A stretch of DNA of 32,039 nucleotides, taken from a virus. Every line of letters starts with the position of its first letter. Within the stretch, counting starts at the first letter, position 1. Both the position numbers and the translations under genes were made by a program. The notes beneath the pieces are model-generated. The model was not told where the DNA came from and ran no database searches. It saw only the letters and a program-made list of their open reading frames with translations. Below, one piece after another: positions 5,456 to 25,371 of the stretch. The stretch is taken from positions 1 through 32,039 of the IMG/VR virus record IMGVR_UViG_3300028384_000023, one strand, 5' to 3'.

Positions 5456-5661
5456 TATTGAAATAATTTATGTCCATTTTCTTGGACAATTCTTTGTAGT
5501 TGTTCGGTGTATAATATGAAATGTGTTTGTGTAACACTCCCAATCCCTTGTGCAAAATAATCGTCGGGATTGCAACATTCCCTTGAATATGAACCGTCAC
5601 GACATAGACATGCACGTTGGTCATTGCGTGGAACGTTGTACCGTTGATTTTTATTTCGCAT
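5455..5661 (-). CDS. Small Cys-rich protein with CLC...CC motif, unknown function
   Basis: I choose the ATG at 5661 (MRNKNQRYNVPRN), which overlaps the protease stop by 11 bases; a longer in-frame start at 5706 would overlap it more. The 68-residue product carries RACLCRDGSYSRECCNP, four Cys in about 13 residues, followed by an aromatic segment DYFAQGIGS. Small proteins with a CLC...CC core preceding head genes are familiar to me from flavobacterial phages, but I know no function. The Cys pattern could bind zinc or form disulfides in the virion. The stop overlaps the next gene as TAATG, so it is likely co-translated with the decoration-like gene. Confidence 0.72.
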   Translation of the reverse strand: MRNKNQRYNVPRNDQRACLCRDGSYSRECCNPDDYFAQGIGSVTQTHFILYTEQLQRIVQENGHKLFQ

Positions 5662-7276
5662 TCTTTGGTGATTTTGGGTGTTTGCTTGGTAACAAATCAT
5701 TGTCACCCGTGTATTTTGAATTTTGTGGTCGTCCGTTTTTTACCAAATATAAAAATGCGTTGACACGCGCAAACGACCATTGTGATGCACTTCGGACAAG
5801 CGGTGAACGGGATGTGTTAAACGCACCCAACCCACGTTGGAAAACTGATTTCAACATTCCAACCGTTACACCATAACCCAATTTTTTCTTGTATCGTTCA
5901 TTGAAATCGTCCGATTTTTTCTTCAATGTGGCTTCGTCCTTGGCGGACACCTTTGCACCACGCGTTGTTGATGCGTCCCCTTTTGCCGTTCCCTTCCCCT
6001 TGGGTGATGGATTTGGTGTGTCGGATTTAGGTGCCTTCGGTGATTTTTTTACACCACCACGTTTACCAACTTCCGCAAGTTCTTCTTCCGTTGCCTTGAC
6101 ACAACGATGTTTTTTATAATCTTTTTTGTATCCCGGGGGACATTGGTATTTTTTAAAATCTTCCAAATTGTGTTGACGACATGGCATGAACCATGTTTTG
6201 CCCTCGTATTCGTGTTCGTGATATCCCGCGCATCCAATATCTTCGGCGGCGGAAATCGCAAGTTCTTTTGTTGAATATGCTAAACGGTCGTCAATAATGG
6301 CAAGTGTGTCGTTGACCACTTGTGATTCCATTTCTAATTTTCCCAGTTCCTTCAATTTTGATTCGGCGTATCGTTTTCCGGCCTTGCCACCCCATAATAA
6401 ATAAGATATTGTTCCACATGCTTGTGTGTCGCCTTCGTCATAATATTCTTCGGCGCGTGACAAGAATGAATACATTCGCGTCAATGTTGATTCCGAAATG
6501 GGTTGTTTTTGTGCCAACTGTCGTGCGCGTATTTTACCCACTTGGGTTGCGCATTTATTGTTGACCTTTTTATTCAATTCAATTCCGCGTTTGGCGTTAT
6601 TGGAAACCGCGTCCGGATAATCGGAATATGATTCCATTTCAATTGTTTCGCCTGATTTGTATCGATTATCTTTTTTTACAATCGCGCGGATTTGTGATAA
6701 TATGAATTGTTTTTCTTCTTCTTCAATCCGGGCCATTTCATCTTTAATGGATTTGTCTTGTGGCCGTTCCATCTTGTCGGAAAAATACGCTTCGATTGAA
6801 AATCCTTTGACCTTGCCAGTTTTCACAAATTCATTCCAAACTTCGTCATTGTCAACCTTCATTGACACCATCCAAGTCCCAACCGGAACATTCAGCCCGT
6901 AATGTCGTGACTTGTCTTTTTCCGATTCAACAATCCATGATTCAACAACGGTCATTCCTGAAATTGGTGCGTCGTGTTCTAATGTCGCCCGTGATTGATT
7001 GCCACGTTTAAAAAACAATTGACTTGCCTTCAATACCGTTTGCCGTGAAAAATAAATGTAATATTCTTTTTCCCCTGACTTGCGATAAATTGGTTTATTT
7101 GGAACCAATGCCGCACCCATAAGGATGCGTTTTTCTTTGTCAACTTCGGCAAATTTAAATTCTTGATTTTTTAACGCAATGAATTCTTCTTCAATTGCCG
7201 GTTTTTCGACAACGCTAATCGCGTCGATTCCGGATATTTCATCGTTTTCGTCAATGAATAATTCTACAATGTCCAT
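5651..7276 (-). CDS. Mosaic prohead protease (XkdF-like) with C-terminal DUF5824-like domain
   Basis: This 541-residue protein has an N-terminal XkdF-type serine protease domain (about 1-170). After RILMGAALVPN it shows TLEHDAP (likely catalytic His about 101) and VKGFSIEAYF (likely catalytic Ser about 160), the order seen in herpesvirus/HK97-type prohead proteases. A second helical domain (about 218-312) contains SNNAKRGIELNKKVNNKC and YLLWGGKAG. A short Cys/His-containing stretch (about 349-392) and a Pro/Ser/Lys linker follow. The last 100 residues (VFQRGLGAFNTSRSP, RVNAFLYLVKNGRP, TGDNDLLP) resemble DUF5824. The protease should cleave scaffold and capsid subunits during maturation. Roles of the three added domains are unknown. 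The leader is ATTATTATTAAAAT before the ATG. Confidence 0.87.
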   Translation of the reverse strand: MDIVELFIDENDEISGIDAISVVEKPAIEEEFIALKNQEFKFAEVDKEKRILMGAALVPNKPIYRKSGEKEYYIYFSRQTVLKASQLFFKRGNQSRATLEHDAPISGMTVVESWIVESEKDKSRHYGLNVPVGTWMVSMKVDNDEVWNEFVKTGKVKGFSIEAYFSDKMERPQDKSIKDEMARIEEEEKQFILSQIRAIVKKDNRYKSGETIEMESYSDYPDAVSNNAKRGIELNKKVNNKCATQVGKIRARQLAQKQPISESTLTRMYSFLSRAEEYYDEGDTQACGTISYLLWGGKAGKRYAESKLKELGKLEMESQVVNDTLAIIDDRLAYSTKELAISAAEDIGCAGYHEHEYEGKTWFMPCRQHNLEDFKKYQCPPGYKKDYKKHRCVKATEEELAEVGKRGGVKKSPKAPKSDTPNPSPKGKGTAKGDASTTRGAKVSAKDEATLKKKSDDFNERYKKKLGYGVTVGMLKSVFQRGLGAFNTSRSPLVRSASQWSFARVNAFLYLVKNGRPQNSKYTGDNDLLPSKHPKSPKNAK

Positions 7277-7305: not shown

Positions 7306-9177
7306 TTATCCAATGGACGCCCCTTGAACAATTTTACGGTCAAGTGCTTGGGCGTTTGTCACGTCGTCCGAAACAACATACGCACGGGTCGGTTGTTTGG
7401 ATTGTTCGCCAATGGTTTGTGCCAACTGATTTTCCGGTGATGCACCAACGACATTGAATGCGGGTGCGGCCGCTCCCCGTGGCCCGGCAACGTCAACACT
7501 TGTACCACCTTCCGCACCGGGTGCCTTGGTGGCCGCAATCTTTTTGACCGTAGCAAAACCGGATGCCAATATTGAACCGGCGGAAACAACTTTTTGAATT
7601 GATCCAAATGGTTCGGGTATTGTTGTCGGTGTTTTTAAAACTTCGGTGAAACCTAACAATGAATTGATCGTTGCTTGTGCAATTGCGGCGGCCTTCCCGG
7701 CCTTGGAATTTTCACCAAGAATATTTGCAACAAAACCAAGTGCGTCGGAAACGATTTGTTTCTTTTGATTTTCAACCATTTTTTTTGTGGCCAAATCTTT
7801 TTTGTCGTTGTCTTCTTTTTGTTTTGAAATTTGATTGTCAAGTTCCGCGCCTTCCAATTCCTTTTGTTGACGGAAATCAAACAATGCTTGTTCGGCGTCT
7901 TGTCGTGCTTGGGTGCCAACGGCCAAACGATCGATTTCACCTTGCAATCGTTCATCTTCAATTGCAGTTTCTTCCGCCAATACTTCTTTTAATTTTTCCA
8001 AACGCAAAATGTCGTCTTCAATTTCTTCTGCATTGAATCGTTTCTTTGCAATGGCCCGGGCGTTTTCTGCTTCCAAACGTGTATTCAAAAGGTCTATGGC
8101 TTCCAATTCCAATGCTTCCGCATTGACACGTTGTTCCGATTCAAACCCGGCAATGTTTTCTTTTACATCAAACAAGTTTTTTTCGGCTTCAATAAGTTTT
8201 TCTTTTGCGTCAATCGATTTTGGATTTCCTTGCAATTCTAATTCCGCCAATTCCAATGCCTTGTTTGCATTTGCAATTTGTAAATCAAATTGTTCTTTTA
8301 ACACTTCACCAAGTTGATTGTTTGCCTTGGTTCGATCTTCAATTGATGCGGTGACGTCGTCGCGTATTTGTCGTTGACGTTCGGCCGCAAGTTGAAATTG
8401 GAATTGTAATTTGTCGTTTTCAGCTAATGCCAAACGCGTTTCGTTTCTTAATTGTTGCAAACGTTTTTGGTTTGCCGCCGTTTGTAATACGTCAATTTTA
8501 TTTATCCCTTCCGATACTTCTTCGACAAAACCACCGATTTGTGATCCCGCTTCAATAAATCCTTGTCCGACACCTTTTAAGTTGTCCACGACACCCGTGG
8601 CCGAATCGTACAATTTGTCATTGACTTCTTGAATGTCGCCTTTTAATTGTTCAATTTTGTCGGCATCATTGCCACCAAAGAATGAACCTTCCCACGCTAA
8701 TTGTGCTTGTAATATTCCAGATTGAATTGTAAAGAATGACGTCTTTAAAAGATTGATTGGAATCATGACGGTGTTTTTTAAAATATCACCCAACGACGTA
8801 AATTCCTTACCCGCGTCCACAACAATGCCAACAAGTTTGTTTGTGATTGACGCAACAGTTCCAAATGCCGTGGCCATTGAATCAACAATGACTTGATTTT
8901 GATTTAAGACCGCGAAGAATTGTTCCAATATTTTCCCGCCCAATGCAAACACAAAACCCTTGGCCGCAAGTCCAAGACCCTTGAATCCCTTGGACAAACC
9001 TTTAATTGCGGATGTACCTTTTTTCGTGGATTTACTTACGTCATCCAATGATTTTTTTGTGGCATTTTTAAACGATTCCATTTCGTTTGTGGAACCTTCA
9101 ATTGCCGCCGCAACATTTTTGATTTCATCCAAGGCCTTGTCGGTCTTAGCAATCAATTCAAGTTCAATTTGTTTCAT
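7306..9177 (-). CDS. Tape measure protein
   Basis: This 623-residue protein has the build of a siphovirus tape measure, which fills the tail lumen and sets its length. The N-terminus is helical and basic (KKGTSAIKGLSKGFKGLGLAAKG). A hydrophobic segment follows (about 70-150). A long charged coiled coil covers about 235-480, and a second hydrophobic region lies near 480-545 (ALGFVANILGEN, GFATVKKIAATKAPGAEGG). The C-terminus ends in AYVVSDDVTNAQALDRKI, an ending I associate with tape measures of phages of Bacteroidota. At about 0.15 nm per residue it would specify a tail of roughly 90 nm. It overlaps the small upstream gene by 14 bases. Confidence 0.87.
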   Translation of the reverse strand: MKQIELELIAKTDKALDEIKNVAAAIEGSTNEMESFKNATKKSLDDVSKSTKKGTSAIKGLSKGFKGLGLAAKGFVFALGGKILEQFFAVLNQNQVIVDSMATAFGTVASITNKLVGIVVDAGKEFTSLGDILKNTVMIPINLLKTSFFTIQSGILQAQLAWEGSFFGGNDADKIEQLKGDIQEVNDKLYDSATGVVDNLKGVGQGFIEAGSQIGGFVEEVSEGINKIDVLQTAANQKRLQQLRNETRLALAENDKLQFQFQLAAERQRQIRDDVTASIEDRTKANNQLGEVLKEQFDLQIANANKALELAELELQGNPKSIDAKEKLIEAEKNLFDVKENIAGFESEQRVNAEALELEAIDLLNTRLEAENARAIAKKRFNAEEIEDDILRLEKLKEVLAEETAIEDERLQGEIDRLAVGTQARQDAEQALFDFRQQKELEGAELDNQISKQKEDNDKKDLATKKMVENQKKQIVSDALGFVANILGENSKAGKAAAIAQATINSLLGFTEVLKTPTTIPEPFGSIQKVVSAGSILASGFATVKKIAATKAPGAEGGTSVDVAGPRGAAAPAFNVVGASPENQLAQTIGEQSKQPTRAYVVSDDVTNAQALDRKIVQGASIG

Positions 9178-15847: not shown

Positions 15848-16306
15848 TCAATCGCAAACGGTCATGTCATTTTGCGCGACGACTTGAAACGTTGCCGACC
15901 ACCCCGCAAGTTTATTTTCGAATCGGTCGACGAAGGCTTCGCACGTCACATTTTCTTCCACTTGATATTTGTCCCGGTACAATGAACCCCGTTGAAGTTT
16001 ATTCAGCACTCGCGTCATCACGGCAAGACATGTGTTTAATACGTCTTGTTCGTTATCGTTACCGGTGAACTTGTCGGTGACTTCGTCTTTTGATATGTCC
16101 ACGATGTCCATGACAATTAAATCAATATTAAATCGAAACACATTATTTGACACGATTGTGCTTGACACATCCAAATGGCCCAATGGGAATATTTCTTGTT
16201 TGTCCAAATCCACTTCCGACAATTGACCGAATGTTACATTGTTTATGAATGGCTCGGCAACAAGGGCGTCTTTTATTTTGGTTGTTATGTCGTAAAATTG
16301 TTTCAT
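15848..16306 (-). CDS. Tail terminator-like protein
   Basis: This 152-residue protein starts MKQFYDITTKIKDAL and contains VDLDKQEIFPLGHLDVSS, FRFNIDLIVMDIVDISKDE, NDNEQDVLNTCLAVMTRVL and FENKLAGWSATFQVV. The alternating helix and strand pattern and the NEQDVLNT...ENKLAGW phrases are those of conserved tail terminator/completion proteins of flavobacterial phages. Its start overlaps by ATGA the stop of the short out-of-frame reading frame that follows the chaperone-like gene, which supports that frame being translated. Located with the gp10-like gene, it should cap the tail tube and join it to the head. The function is by family resemblance. Confidence 0.8.
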   Translation of the reverse strand: MKQFYDITTKIKDALVAEPFINNVTFGQLSEVDLDKQEIFPLGHLDVSSTIVSNNVFRFNIDLIVMDIVDISKDEVTDKFTGNDNEQDVLNTCLAVMTRVLNKLQRGSLYRDKYQVEENVTCEAFVDRFENKLAGWSATFQVVAQNDMTVCD

Positions 16307-16407
16307 TTTTTATTTATCATTTTATGTTCCAATTCGTTCTTTTCTTTTTCGAATGCCAAGAACATCAAACATTTGTGAACGTTCATTTTGGTCACGTCAT
16401 CGAACCG
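16303..16407 (-). CDS. Out-of-frame extension of the chaperone-like gene (possible -1 frameshift product)
   Basis: In the -1 frame relative to the gene ending at 16392, an open frame runs from upstream of 16407 to a TGA at 16303-16305. It contains RFDDVTKMNVHKCLMFLAF followed by EKEKNELEHKM and a Lys-rich end. The amino-acid pattern is protein-like, fills the otherwise empty gap, and its stop overlaps the next start by ATGA. It could be reached by -1 frameshifting near the end of the upstream gene, as in lambda G-GT, or start independently at the ATG at 16386 (27 residues). A G-GGA-ACA string at 16413-16419 is only an imperfect slippery site, so the mechanism is unproven. Confidence 0.6.
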   Translation of the reverse strand, partial: RFDDVTKMNVHKCLMFLAFEKEKNELEHKMINKK

Positions 16408-17042
16408 GGCAATGTTCCCTTGAGATAATCCGTAAATGCTCGAATACCAACCCCACTTTGTTCCAAAATTTGCCGTTGCTGATCCGTGATTTCCCCCGAT
16501 TCCTCCTGTAAATAATTCGGGATATGATTCAACAATTCGATTCCGATATTGTAAAAAAAAACCTTGATTCCAAGAACAACATCCAAGGGGGCATTTTTCA
16601 TGACTTCGGATTGTTCACAACCTTCGTATTCTTCAATTAAATATTTGTGTCCTTTTTTGTATTTGATGGGTCGGTAAAGTATCGTCATTGCCTTGTCCAT
16701 TGTTTCCCAGTCATGGAAGTATTGGTCAAGGTCAATGTATTCACCCAATGACATTTCATCGAAGTTTGGGATCAAACCGTATTCTTGTCCCAATAATTTG
16801 AATGTCGGGATCACCGATTGTTCTTCGTGGAATATTTCTTGGATGTCATTTGCAATTTGATTCATGTCGGCGTATTTAAATGTCGCCACATCTTCGAAAT
16901 CAATTCCACAAAATATTTCAATGATGTTTTTTAAAACTTCCGAATTTGGTGTTTCGTCGTCCATGTCGAATTTCAAAAATCTTTGATACTGATCCAATGA
17001 TATGTCGGACAACGAAGTCGGAACGTTTATTTTTACCTTCAT
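16392..17042 (-). CDS. Tail assembly chaperone-like protein
   Basis: I start this gene at the ATG at 17042 (MKVKINVPTSLSDISLDQYQ), preceded by ATTATTATTAT, giving 216 residues; the earlier in-frame ATG would extend into the terminator. The protein is helical and acidic, with NEVLKNIIEIF-like and YKYADMNQIAND-like stretches and AMTILYRPIKYKKGHKYLIE. It ends RAFTDYLKGTLPGSMT. Position before the tail terminator, length and the overlapping -1 frame at its 3' end are typical of tail assembly chaperones that bind the tape measure. The tape measure gene, however, is about 7 kb downstream rather than adjacent. A terminator and possible promoter lie just upstream. Confidence 0.7.
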   Translation of the reverse strand: MKVKINVPTSLSDISLDQYQRFLKFDMDDETPNSEVLKNIIEIFCGIDFEDVATFKYADMNQIANDIQEIFHEEQSVIPTFKLLGQEYGLIPNFDEMSLGEYIDLDQYFHDWETMDKAMTILYRPIKYKKGHKYLIEEYEGCEQSEVMKNAPLDVVLGIKVFFYNIGIELLNHIPNYLQEESGEITDQQRQILEQSGVGIRAFTDYLKGTLPGSMT

Positions 17043-17835: not shown

Positions 17836-19008
17836 TTAATACACAAAATATTTTCCTTTGTGTGGATTTTCAAGTTGCATCATTAACGCATACCGACCCG
17901 CGTCGATTGCGTGATCCCCCGCCAATGGGTTTGGTTTCTGTATTGTTTCACCTGATTTGTCGGTCGCCCACACATATCCGTTGATTTCTTTTATTAGATT
18001 TTTTGACCGTTCGGTCACAAACACTTTGTTTTGATTTATCAAGTTGATTCCGTAAATAATTGAATCGCGTCCCTTGGTCACACCCGTAATTGAATGACCA
18101 TACGATTGCAGTTCGGCAATTGATTTTGGTTCGGCTGAATCAGCATAAATGTGATCGGTGATGTCGTTGTTTTTTAAGAACTGGGAAATGTGTGAATTCA
18201 ACATCCCTTTTTGATACAACACCTCGTCGAATATATACCCCCCGTCAAAATACCAAAGACCCACACATGATGAATTGTCAACGGAATATCCCCAGTCCAA
18301 TCCATAACACAACAAACGTGCATCTTCGGGTATTTCGTCAATGTGTTCGATGTCGGGGAATATTGCCCCGGATAATTGTCCGATTTGACCGTCAAGATAA
18401 ACACGCGTCCAATTACGCCAGTAAGTCGATTTTGCGGCCTTTTCCCGGGCGATTTTAAATTCATTGAGTATTGAATCCGGAATGGTGTCGTTGTCCTTGT
18501 ATGTGACTGTAATGAAGTCCACATCTTCTTGACCAACCAATTCACGGTCGGCCCAAAACAATTGTGATGGATTGTAGTCCAACCAAATGGTTCCGGATGT
18601 TCTTGTGGCCAATTGATTATATGATTCGTGGGAAATCAAATTTGTTTCATTGACAAACAAATCCGAACGACGCGCACCGCGTAAACGGTCGGCATTTTCA
18701 GTTGAAAAAAATTCAATGGTTGACCCATTGGAAAATGTGTATTTTAAATTTGATTTGTTCCAACGTGATTCACGCCACCGTCCAATGCCTTCCATGATTA
18801 ATTTGAAGTCGCGAATACATCCACGACGTAAATGTGGCAACGTGACGGACACGACCGACATTTCACGACCGGGTGTTTTCATGCACTCGTTAATCATGAT
18901 TGTCAAAATGCAAATTGTTTTTCCCGCCGCAGTTCCGCCACGAATTAAACGTTTGCGTTTTGTCAAACGATATATTTTGTCAAATGCTTGTGTTCTTCGG
19001 ATTTCCAA
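17836..19008 (-). CDS. terL: Terminase large subunit
   Basis: This is the packaging motor: an ATPase that drives DNA into the capsid, with a nuclease that cuts concatemers. Walker A is RGGTAAGKT (residues about 23-31) and Walker B with catalytic Glu is DLFVNE (116-121). The RNase H-like nuclease domain shows LDWG (Asp 238), YADSAEP (Asp 290) and GDHAID (Asp 365, 369). The 390 residues are near complete for a short TerL. No in-frame ATG lies before Walker A; translation would begin at the TTG at 19008, after an in-frame TGA at 19017. An ATG at 19018 is one base out of frame, and removing one T from a TTT run would give MTILEIRRTQ. Either a TTG start or a one-base error is likely. Confidence 0.92.
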   Translation of the reverse strand: MEIRRTQAFDKIYRLTKRKRLIRGGTAAGKTICILTIMINECMKTPGREMSVVSVTLPHLRRGCIRDFKLIMEGIGRWRESRWNKSNLKYTFSNGSTIEFFSTENADRLRGARRSDLFVNETNLISHESYNQLATRTSGTIWLDYNPSQLFWADRELVGQEDVDFITVTYKDNDTIPDSILNEFKIAREKAAKSTYWRNWTRVYLDGQIGQLSGAIFPDIEHIDEIPEDARLLCYGLDWGYSVDNSSCVGLWYFDGGYIFDEVLYQKGMLNSHISQFLKNNDITDHIYADSAEPKSIAELQSYGHSITGVTKGRDSIIYGINLINQNKVFVTERSKNLIKEINGYVWATDKSGETIQKPNPLAGDHAIDAGRYALMMQLENPHKGKYFVY

Positions 19009-19311: not shown

Positions 19312-20232
19312 TTAAAATATGCAATATTTGATTCGTTCCATAACCGCTTGGACAACATCAACTGTGACCGCATTGCCACACATTTTGTATCGTTGTGAAT
19401 CACTTATTTCACCGTTGGTGCCGTACTTTGTCCAATTGTCTGGAAACCCTTGAAGTCGTTCACATTCAATTGGTGTCAATCTTCTTATTCTTGGAGTTTT
19501 AAGATATGTCGGATCATTAAGTGTAAGTGTTGGTGATATGTTATTTTGTCGCCAACGAAATCCTTCGTCATATCTGAAGTCACCTATTTGTGCATTGAGT
19601 TTATTTTCAACAATGTACGATCCGACGCCGTCTGCTCGGTATCTTGTTGTAAGGGTGTTTGTTGTTTGTTCTTGTACGACATCAGTCTTTGTGTCGTCTT
19701 TTCCGATAGGAAATATTTGTCGTCCACTTCCGTTTCCAATATATCCGACAAGGTAAATTCGCTCGCGGTTTTGGGGTAAAAACCATTTTGTATTGAGCAA
19801 TTGCCATTCAAGTCGATAACCCCCAAGGTCGGCAAAGGCTTTGATAATTGCCCAAAAATCTGCGCCATTGTTTGTGCTGAATGTTCCTTTAACATTTTCC
19901 CACACAAAAAAACGTGGTCTGCATTCATCGATGAGTCGTATTGCTTCGGTAATAAGGGACGATCGATCTCCGTCCATCCCGGAACGTTTTCCAGCAAGGC
20001 TAAAATCTTGACATGGGCTTCCAAAAGTGATTGCGTCGATTCTTGGTAATTCGTTTCCTCGAACATTTGTAACTGATCCGACATATTTTGATTTTTTAAA
20101 ATTATTTTGATATACTGATATTGCATGTTTGTCAATTTCGGAAAAATACGAATTGACTTTAAATCCTGTCTTGGTCATTCCGAAATGAAATCCGCCAATG
20201 CCACTAAATAAATCCAAAACATTTAAACGCAT
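19312..20232 (-). CDS. DNA cytosine-5 methyltransferase
   Basis: This 306-residue enzyme transfers a methyl group from S-adenosylmethionine to C5 of cytosine. The conserved motifs appear in order: LDLFSGIGG (motif I, 6-14), GSPCQDFS with catalytic Cys 74 (motif IV), WENVKG (VI, 111-116), QNRERIYLVGY (VIII, 154-164), RRLTPIECERLQGFP (IX, 250-264) and GNAV (X, 286-289). The target recognition domain is short (about 175-245), so a short target is likely, but I cannot read it. It overlaps the PD-(D/E)XK-like gene by 10 bases. In phages such enzymes usually protect viral DNA from host restriction. All catalytic residues are present, so it should be active. Confidence 0.95.
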   Translation of the reverse strand: MRLNVLDLFSGIGGFHFGMTKTGFKVNSYFSEIDKHAISVYQNNFKKSKYVGSVTNVRGNELPRIDAITFGSPCQDFSLAGKRSGMDGDRSSLITEAIRLIDECRPRFFVWENVKGTFSTNNGADFWAIIKAFADLGGYRLEWQLLNTKWFLPQNRERIYLVGYIGNGSGRQIFPIGKDDTKTDVVQEQTTNTLTTRYRADGVGSYIVENKLNAQIGDFRYDEGFRWRQNNISPTLTLNDPTYLKTPRIRRLTPIECERLQGFPDNWTKYGTNGEISDSQRYKMCGNAVTVDVVQAVMERIKYCIF

Positions 20233-24582: not shown

Positions 24583-24607
24583 AAAAAAAAAGGGGGCAAT
24601 GCCCCCC
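24583..24607 (-). terminator. Terminator abutting the helicase start codon
   Basis: On the minus strand GGGGGC-ATT-GCCCCC (six GC pairs, three-base loop) is followed by nine T residues and then, with no gap, the ATG of the helicase-like gene. It ends the transcript of the SSB-like gene (stop at 24613), or could regulate the helicase by read-through. Confidence 0.82.
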
Positions 24608-25308: not shown

Positions 25309-25335
25309 ACGTTTATATTTTTCACTAAGTTATAA

Positions 25336-25371
25336 AAAAAAAATAAAAAAAAAGGGATGTCGAAACATCCC
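25336..25371 (-). terminator. Terminator with a TTCG tetraloop after the NinG-like gene
   Basis: On the minus strand GGGATGT-TTCG-ACATCCC (seven pairs, TTCG loop) is followed by a tract of about nine T, an A and nine more T. It lies about 28 bases after the NinG-like stop at 25399. Confidence 0.88.

Follow-up and report, generated by a model that had tools for sequence, protein, structure and literature searches.

A conserved run of at least nine thymines links two reading frames of a chaperone-like phage gene pair, possibly through slippage of RNA polymerase

Two reading frames are open across the 3' end of a gene, here called X, in IMG/VR virus record IMGVR_UViG_3300028384_000023, and the locus raises the question of how the second of these frames is reached. 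The stretch of DNA analysed (the window; 32,039 nt) carries all genes relevant here on the minus strand. Gene X is an ORF of 216 aa at 16392-17042 (start ATG 17042-17040, stop TGA 16394-16392) and belongs to phrog_32199, a family of unknown function (PHROG E 1e-10), which was matched by all 68 X sequences scanned. The gene is preceded by a TerL gene at 17836-19008, and a DNA methyltransferase gene (19312-20232, minus strand) lies directly upstream of the terminase genes. Downstream of X, an ORF of 152 aa assigned to phrog_30964 occupies 15848-16306. The window gave no matches to Rfam and no tRNAs, and no similarity was found between gene Y and its neighbour-position counterpart in Flavobacterium phage 23T.

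The sequence-only reading of this DNA had described a -1 frame that stays open past the end of X, a peptide encoded there and an ATGA overlap with the next gene, and all three were borne out on the minus strand. Relative to gene X, the -1 frame is open from 16614 down to a TGA at 16305-16303, and this stop overlaps the ATG of the next gene (16306-16304) as ATGA; the same -1 offset of the stop over the next ATG was observed in 166 of the loci counted. That reading had also found no canonical slippery heptamer; however, T_TTT_TTT is present in the zero frame at 16560-16554, about 135 nt farther upstream than it had looked, within a tract of nine Ts (T9) at 16553-16561 (codons GTT TTT TTT TAC, 16562-16551). 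The tail that had been noticed beyond the X stop exists, but the -1 segment, hereafter T, is larger than had been supposed and covers 16554-16303, with 83 codons followed by the TGA. Read in the -1 frame of the window from the slip point, the T peptide is LQYRNRIVESYPELFTGGIGGNHGSATANFGTKWGWYSSIYGLSQGNIARFDDVTKMNVHKCLMFLAFEKEKNELEHKMINKK, and the predicted X-T fusion consists of residues 1-163 of X followed by the 83-aa T, for a total of 246 aa. T9 is rarer in the window than expected (6 matches, against a mean of 15.5 in shuffles). The minus-strand tracts of nine or more Ts at 2950-2958, 24583-24591 and 25334-25353 all lie between listed ORFs (of at least 80 aa), and 16553-16561 is the only such tract inside one.

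A search with the T peptide found 47 viral contigs with 43-84% identity, and a T profile matched at least 599 stretches in the collection. No Pfam or PHROG family covered T in the window, and no relatives were found with the divergent T domain of L221 as query. Loci with both X and T were gathered in successive sets of 214, then 310 (208 unique) and then 270 unique loci, the last set with distant relatives added. Comparison of homologous loci, which the sequence-only reading had proposed as a check, revealed a conserved -1 extension, with T in the -1 relation to X in 270 of the 270 unique loci. The conserved slip sequence sought in the same check was found as a run of Ts at every junction (T9 in 241 loci, T10 in 27 and T11 in 2, with none shorter); however, the slip point that had been suggested, GGGAACA at 16413-16419, was not kept, and was found in the corresponding region of only one of the 270 loci. 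Every locus had T_TTT_TTT in the zero frame. Furthermore, within 765 kb around the junctions, runs of nine or more Ts were counted 270 times at the junctions and only 24 times elsewhere. We judge recoding at the T9 tract to be almost certain.

Substitutions were compared in 60 disjoint, ungapped sister pairs with 70-97% identity to assess the region in which both frames are read (16392-16554, about 160 nt); zero-frame position 2 corresponds to the third position of the -1 frame. Changes at zero-frame positions 1, 2 and 3 amounted to 0.097, 0.057 and 0.274 upstream of the slip, 0.055, 0.109 and 0.108 in the overlap, and 0.045, 0.184 and 0.077 in the tail that is read in the -1 frame only, and the codon periodicity of the 60 pairs switches frame at the T9 tract. 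In the overlap, third-position changes of the zero frame were 0.39 times those upstream (95% interval 0.35-0.44), and third-position changes of the -1 frame were 0.59 times those of the single-coded tail (95% interval 0.49-0.71). Third-position changes are lowered in both frames, and both frames of the overlap are therefore constrained; a second substitution analysis gave a similar result for the overlap. These substitution patterns indicate that the overlap of about 160 nt is under selection in the zero and -1 frames.

It appears very improbable that T is instead a separately started protein, made by re-initiation or internal initiation at 16386 or at another -1 start, although an ATG is present at 16386 in the window and phages P12024L and P12024S are annotated with a small separate gene whose start overlaps the X stop. 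The -1 frame offers no ATG, GTG or TTG from the upstream stop as far as the core W motif in 192 of 264 loci, and conserved residues of T begin directly after the slip, where R6 is invariant and Y11 and F15 are near-invariant. The independent start at 16386 entertained by the earlier reading fared poorly, as the residue at this position, among 68 aligned sequences, is Leu in 58 and Met in 3. Additionally, 24 loci have a -1 stop no more than two codons before the tract.

Every T9 run holds an in-frame T_TTT_TTT, and phase therefore cannot separate slippage of the ribosome from slippage of the polymerase, but length can. The heptamer requires seven Ts, yet runs of seven or eight were absent among the 270 loci. 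In the 246 loci in which the following codon does not start with TT, the codon before the two TTT codons was always NTT. Among the 24 loci in which the following codon does start with TT, five had lost one upstream T (AAT, GGT, AGT, GGT and ACT); all five have TTG after the TTT TTT, so nine Ts are kept. The association of register with length was strong in a Fisher test that ignores phylogeny (p=3.7e-6), and the five exceptional loci are 24-45% identical to one another. The loss of an upstream T was always compensated by a downstream TTG, and the run length itself, at nine or more Ts, therefore appears to be under selection. It should be noted that protein-level covariation could mimic a length constraint, as the five exceptions all come from the class in which Phe-Phe is followed by a Leu codon. 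The conserved -1 domain, the invariant junction, the dual coding and the constraint on run length are all read from comparisons of sequence.

A run of more than eight Ts is the published threshold for transcriptional realignment on T runs (PMC3711429), and slippage has been reported on runs of nine As or Ts (PMC5009743). Single-base insertions increase with the length of an A/T run, and the RNA:DNA hybrid has been reconstructed as nine long (both PMC5574713). Programmed -1 ribosomal frameshifting at U_UUU_UUU, in which two tRNA-Phe would slip back by one base in the manner of the heptamer sites in lambda- and P2-type tail chaperone genes, agrees with the zero-frame heptamer of every locus and with the published G/GT cases, which are ribosomal (PMC5009743); however, seven Ts would suffice for it, neither seven nor eight Ts were seen at any junction, and the shifted registers are compensated to nine. 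U_UUU_UUU is also less shift-prone than A_AAA_AAG in E. coli (PMC5009743). RNA folding of 79 and 132 non-redundant loci, a test limited to nested structures, detected no excess structure downstream of the tract (mean z -0.29, compared with -0.27 to -0.70 in upstream controls) and none upstream of it, and Shine-Dalgarno-like motifs upstream of the tract were few. Ribosomal frameshifting as the main step is accordingly considered rather unlikely. Conservation of length, together with the lack of detected RNA structure, favours transcriptional over ribosomal slippage by about two to one, and the step is probably transcriptional.

In the explanation that we prefer, to which a probability of about 0.6 is given, the X/X-T pair arises from the T9 tract mainly by slippage of RNA polymerase, and the two proteins are probably chaperones. 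X and X-T would be the short and long proteins of one gene, and most of the product would be the 216-aa X. RNA polymerase would slip back on the U9:dA9 hybrid and add one U, and on the resulting U10 mRNA the ribosome would continue in the -1 frame and produce a minority of 246-aa X-T, composed of 163 shared residues and the helical T. A -1 slip of the ribosome on U_UUU_UUU would yield an identical protein and may play a part. X and X-T are probably tail assembly chaperones, as lambda G/GT suggests by analogy; we infer this role, as well as slippage at the RNA level and the ratio of the products.

Structures of both parts were predicted with AlphaFold. Mean pLDDT values were 80.6 for X and 78.2 for T (moderate confidence), and the T model was all-helical. 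X had no match in the PDB by sequence or by fold, and a fold search of the PDB with T returned only matches with Z below 3, to ribosomal proteins, none of them credible. Pfam and NCBIfam gave no useful match for X and its neighbours; one of 68 members weakly matched Pfam Phage_TAC_7 (E 0.04), and a chaperone in BFVD was matched weakly (E 0.06, probability 0.91). Several single viral proteins in BFVD matched both models, among them A0A516L5A8 (E 2.5e-8 for X and 3e-3 for T) and A0A6J5N0W0 (E 2.8e-10 for X and 0.07 for T), and these matches, for which Foldseek gives no residue ranges, suggest in-frame fusions of the two parts in other phages.

The G/GT-like arrangement proposed by the sequence-only reading held in part. 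A -1 ORF pair with a slip site at its junction is conserved across relatives (270 of 270 loci, together with the dual coding), which strongly supports the conserved extension; the chaperone label is plausible by analogy, but the gene position is atypical and the family matches are weak. X does not lie between the genes for the major tail protein and the tape measure, as a tape-measure-like gene, called by reading the sequence and backed by no profile, is located at 7306-9177, about 7 kb downstream of X and after several tail genes. The earlier observation is real but mis-centred, and its interpretation is partly right. The product of 7306-9177 (minus strand) is a coiled-coil-rich protein of 623 aa with the look of a short tape measure, and its gene comes after structural genes of 1172 and 328 aa, an unusual tail gene order. 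Nearby, 5651-7276 (minus strand) encodes 541 aa with an XkdF-like S78 protease domain, DUF3721 and a near-threshold match to DUF5824, and seems to be a protease joined to additional domains.

The recoded pair could be real but serve near the terminase or neck, in head completion for example, and not in tail assembly. X follows the terminase gene in both the window and P12024L, and no named family matches strongly; however, short and long products with a helical extension are a hallmark of tail chaperones, the Phage_TAC_7 and BFVD matches point weakly in the same direction, and a relative of X in phage 6H lies six genes upstream of an annotated tape measure gene. A non-tail role is regarded as improbable, and action of X and X-T as tail assembly chaperones as quite likely. 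Because X adjoins a terminase gene and the named families match weakly, the pair is not filed among proven chaperone members.

The same T9 site is carried by the Nonlabens isolate phages P12024L and P12024S (L051 3001-3695; L052 3001-3695), whose annotations give the predicted fusion as two hypothetical genes (gp40/gp41 and gp38/gp39). The zero frame stops early in these phages, and the zero-frame C-terminus therefore tolerates truncation. The site was also present in copies from Bacteroidota assemblies, among them a Winogradskyella MAG and, from the family of that MAG, a 3.9-Mb contig of a sampled genome. Few copies were found in bacterial genomes, with 3 in 397 for the family and 1 in 395 at the phylum level.

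Recoding of tail chaperones is a textbook case of ribosomal frameshifting. The odds are about even that a widespread marine group of Bacteroidota phages instead makes a tail-chaperone-like pair by programmed slippage of RNA polymerase on T9, with about 160 nt selected in two frames. We know of no earlier chaperone-like pair set by transcription, and this one, if true, would be the first; searches of a set of open-access papers yielded no account of transcriptional slippage at a tail chaperone gene. If the proposal is true, selection preserves the ratio of short to long product and not the decoding step. It also predicts an overlooked fusion protein in the cultured phages P12024L and P12024S. 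Furthermore, the dual-coded overlap of 160 nt is a good natural case for the study of overlapping genes, and length and heptamer can be set against each other clearly at this site.

Like lambda gpG/gpGT and its counterparts in long-tailed phages, X and X-T share an N-terminus and comprise a short product and a -1-extended product, and as in lambda the slip site lies in the 3' part of the gene and the extension is helical. Unlike lambda, which uses a heptamer, X has a poly-T site of at least nine, an overlap of about 160 nt selected in both frames and a position next to the terminase gene and not the tape measure gene; no sequence similarity of gpG/gpGT to X/T was detectable. Flavobacterium phage 23T encodes a 293-aa protein (phrog_25418) with an X-like N-terminal part (hhalign E 8.7e-5), but in one continuous frame; it is probably a fusion of both parts, although a single-sequence comparison detected no T similarity in its C-terminus. 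The X relative that is one ORF in 23T (L312 10000-10927) is split in 6H (L313 3074-3955) by small indels, which could be genuine or stem from sequencing errors.

The E/E+E' chaperone of phage P2, the system of Pfam Phage_TAC_7, has a T-rich slip site, and it resembles X/T in this respect and in its -1 extension. It differs in being a translational frameshift, according to the title of a 2002 paper by Christie et al. that PMC5009743 cites, and in belonging to a family matched only weakly here (1 of 68 sequences, E 0.04). A zero-frame heptamer of the X_XXY_YYZ form expected of ribosomal sites is present at the junction in all loci, as T_TTT_TTT. Transcriptional realignment in Thermus dnaX, Shigella mxiE and spa13 and some IS transposases concerns cellular or IS genes and not a phage tail-type pair; however, these sites share with X/T an A/T homopolymer of about nine or more, at which insertion of a single base gives the required frame, and at the X/T junction such a run is kept in length whatever its register, at T9-T11 in 270 of 270 loci and at nine in the five shifted registers.
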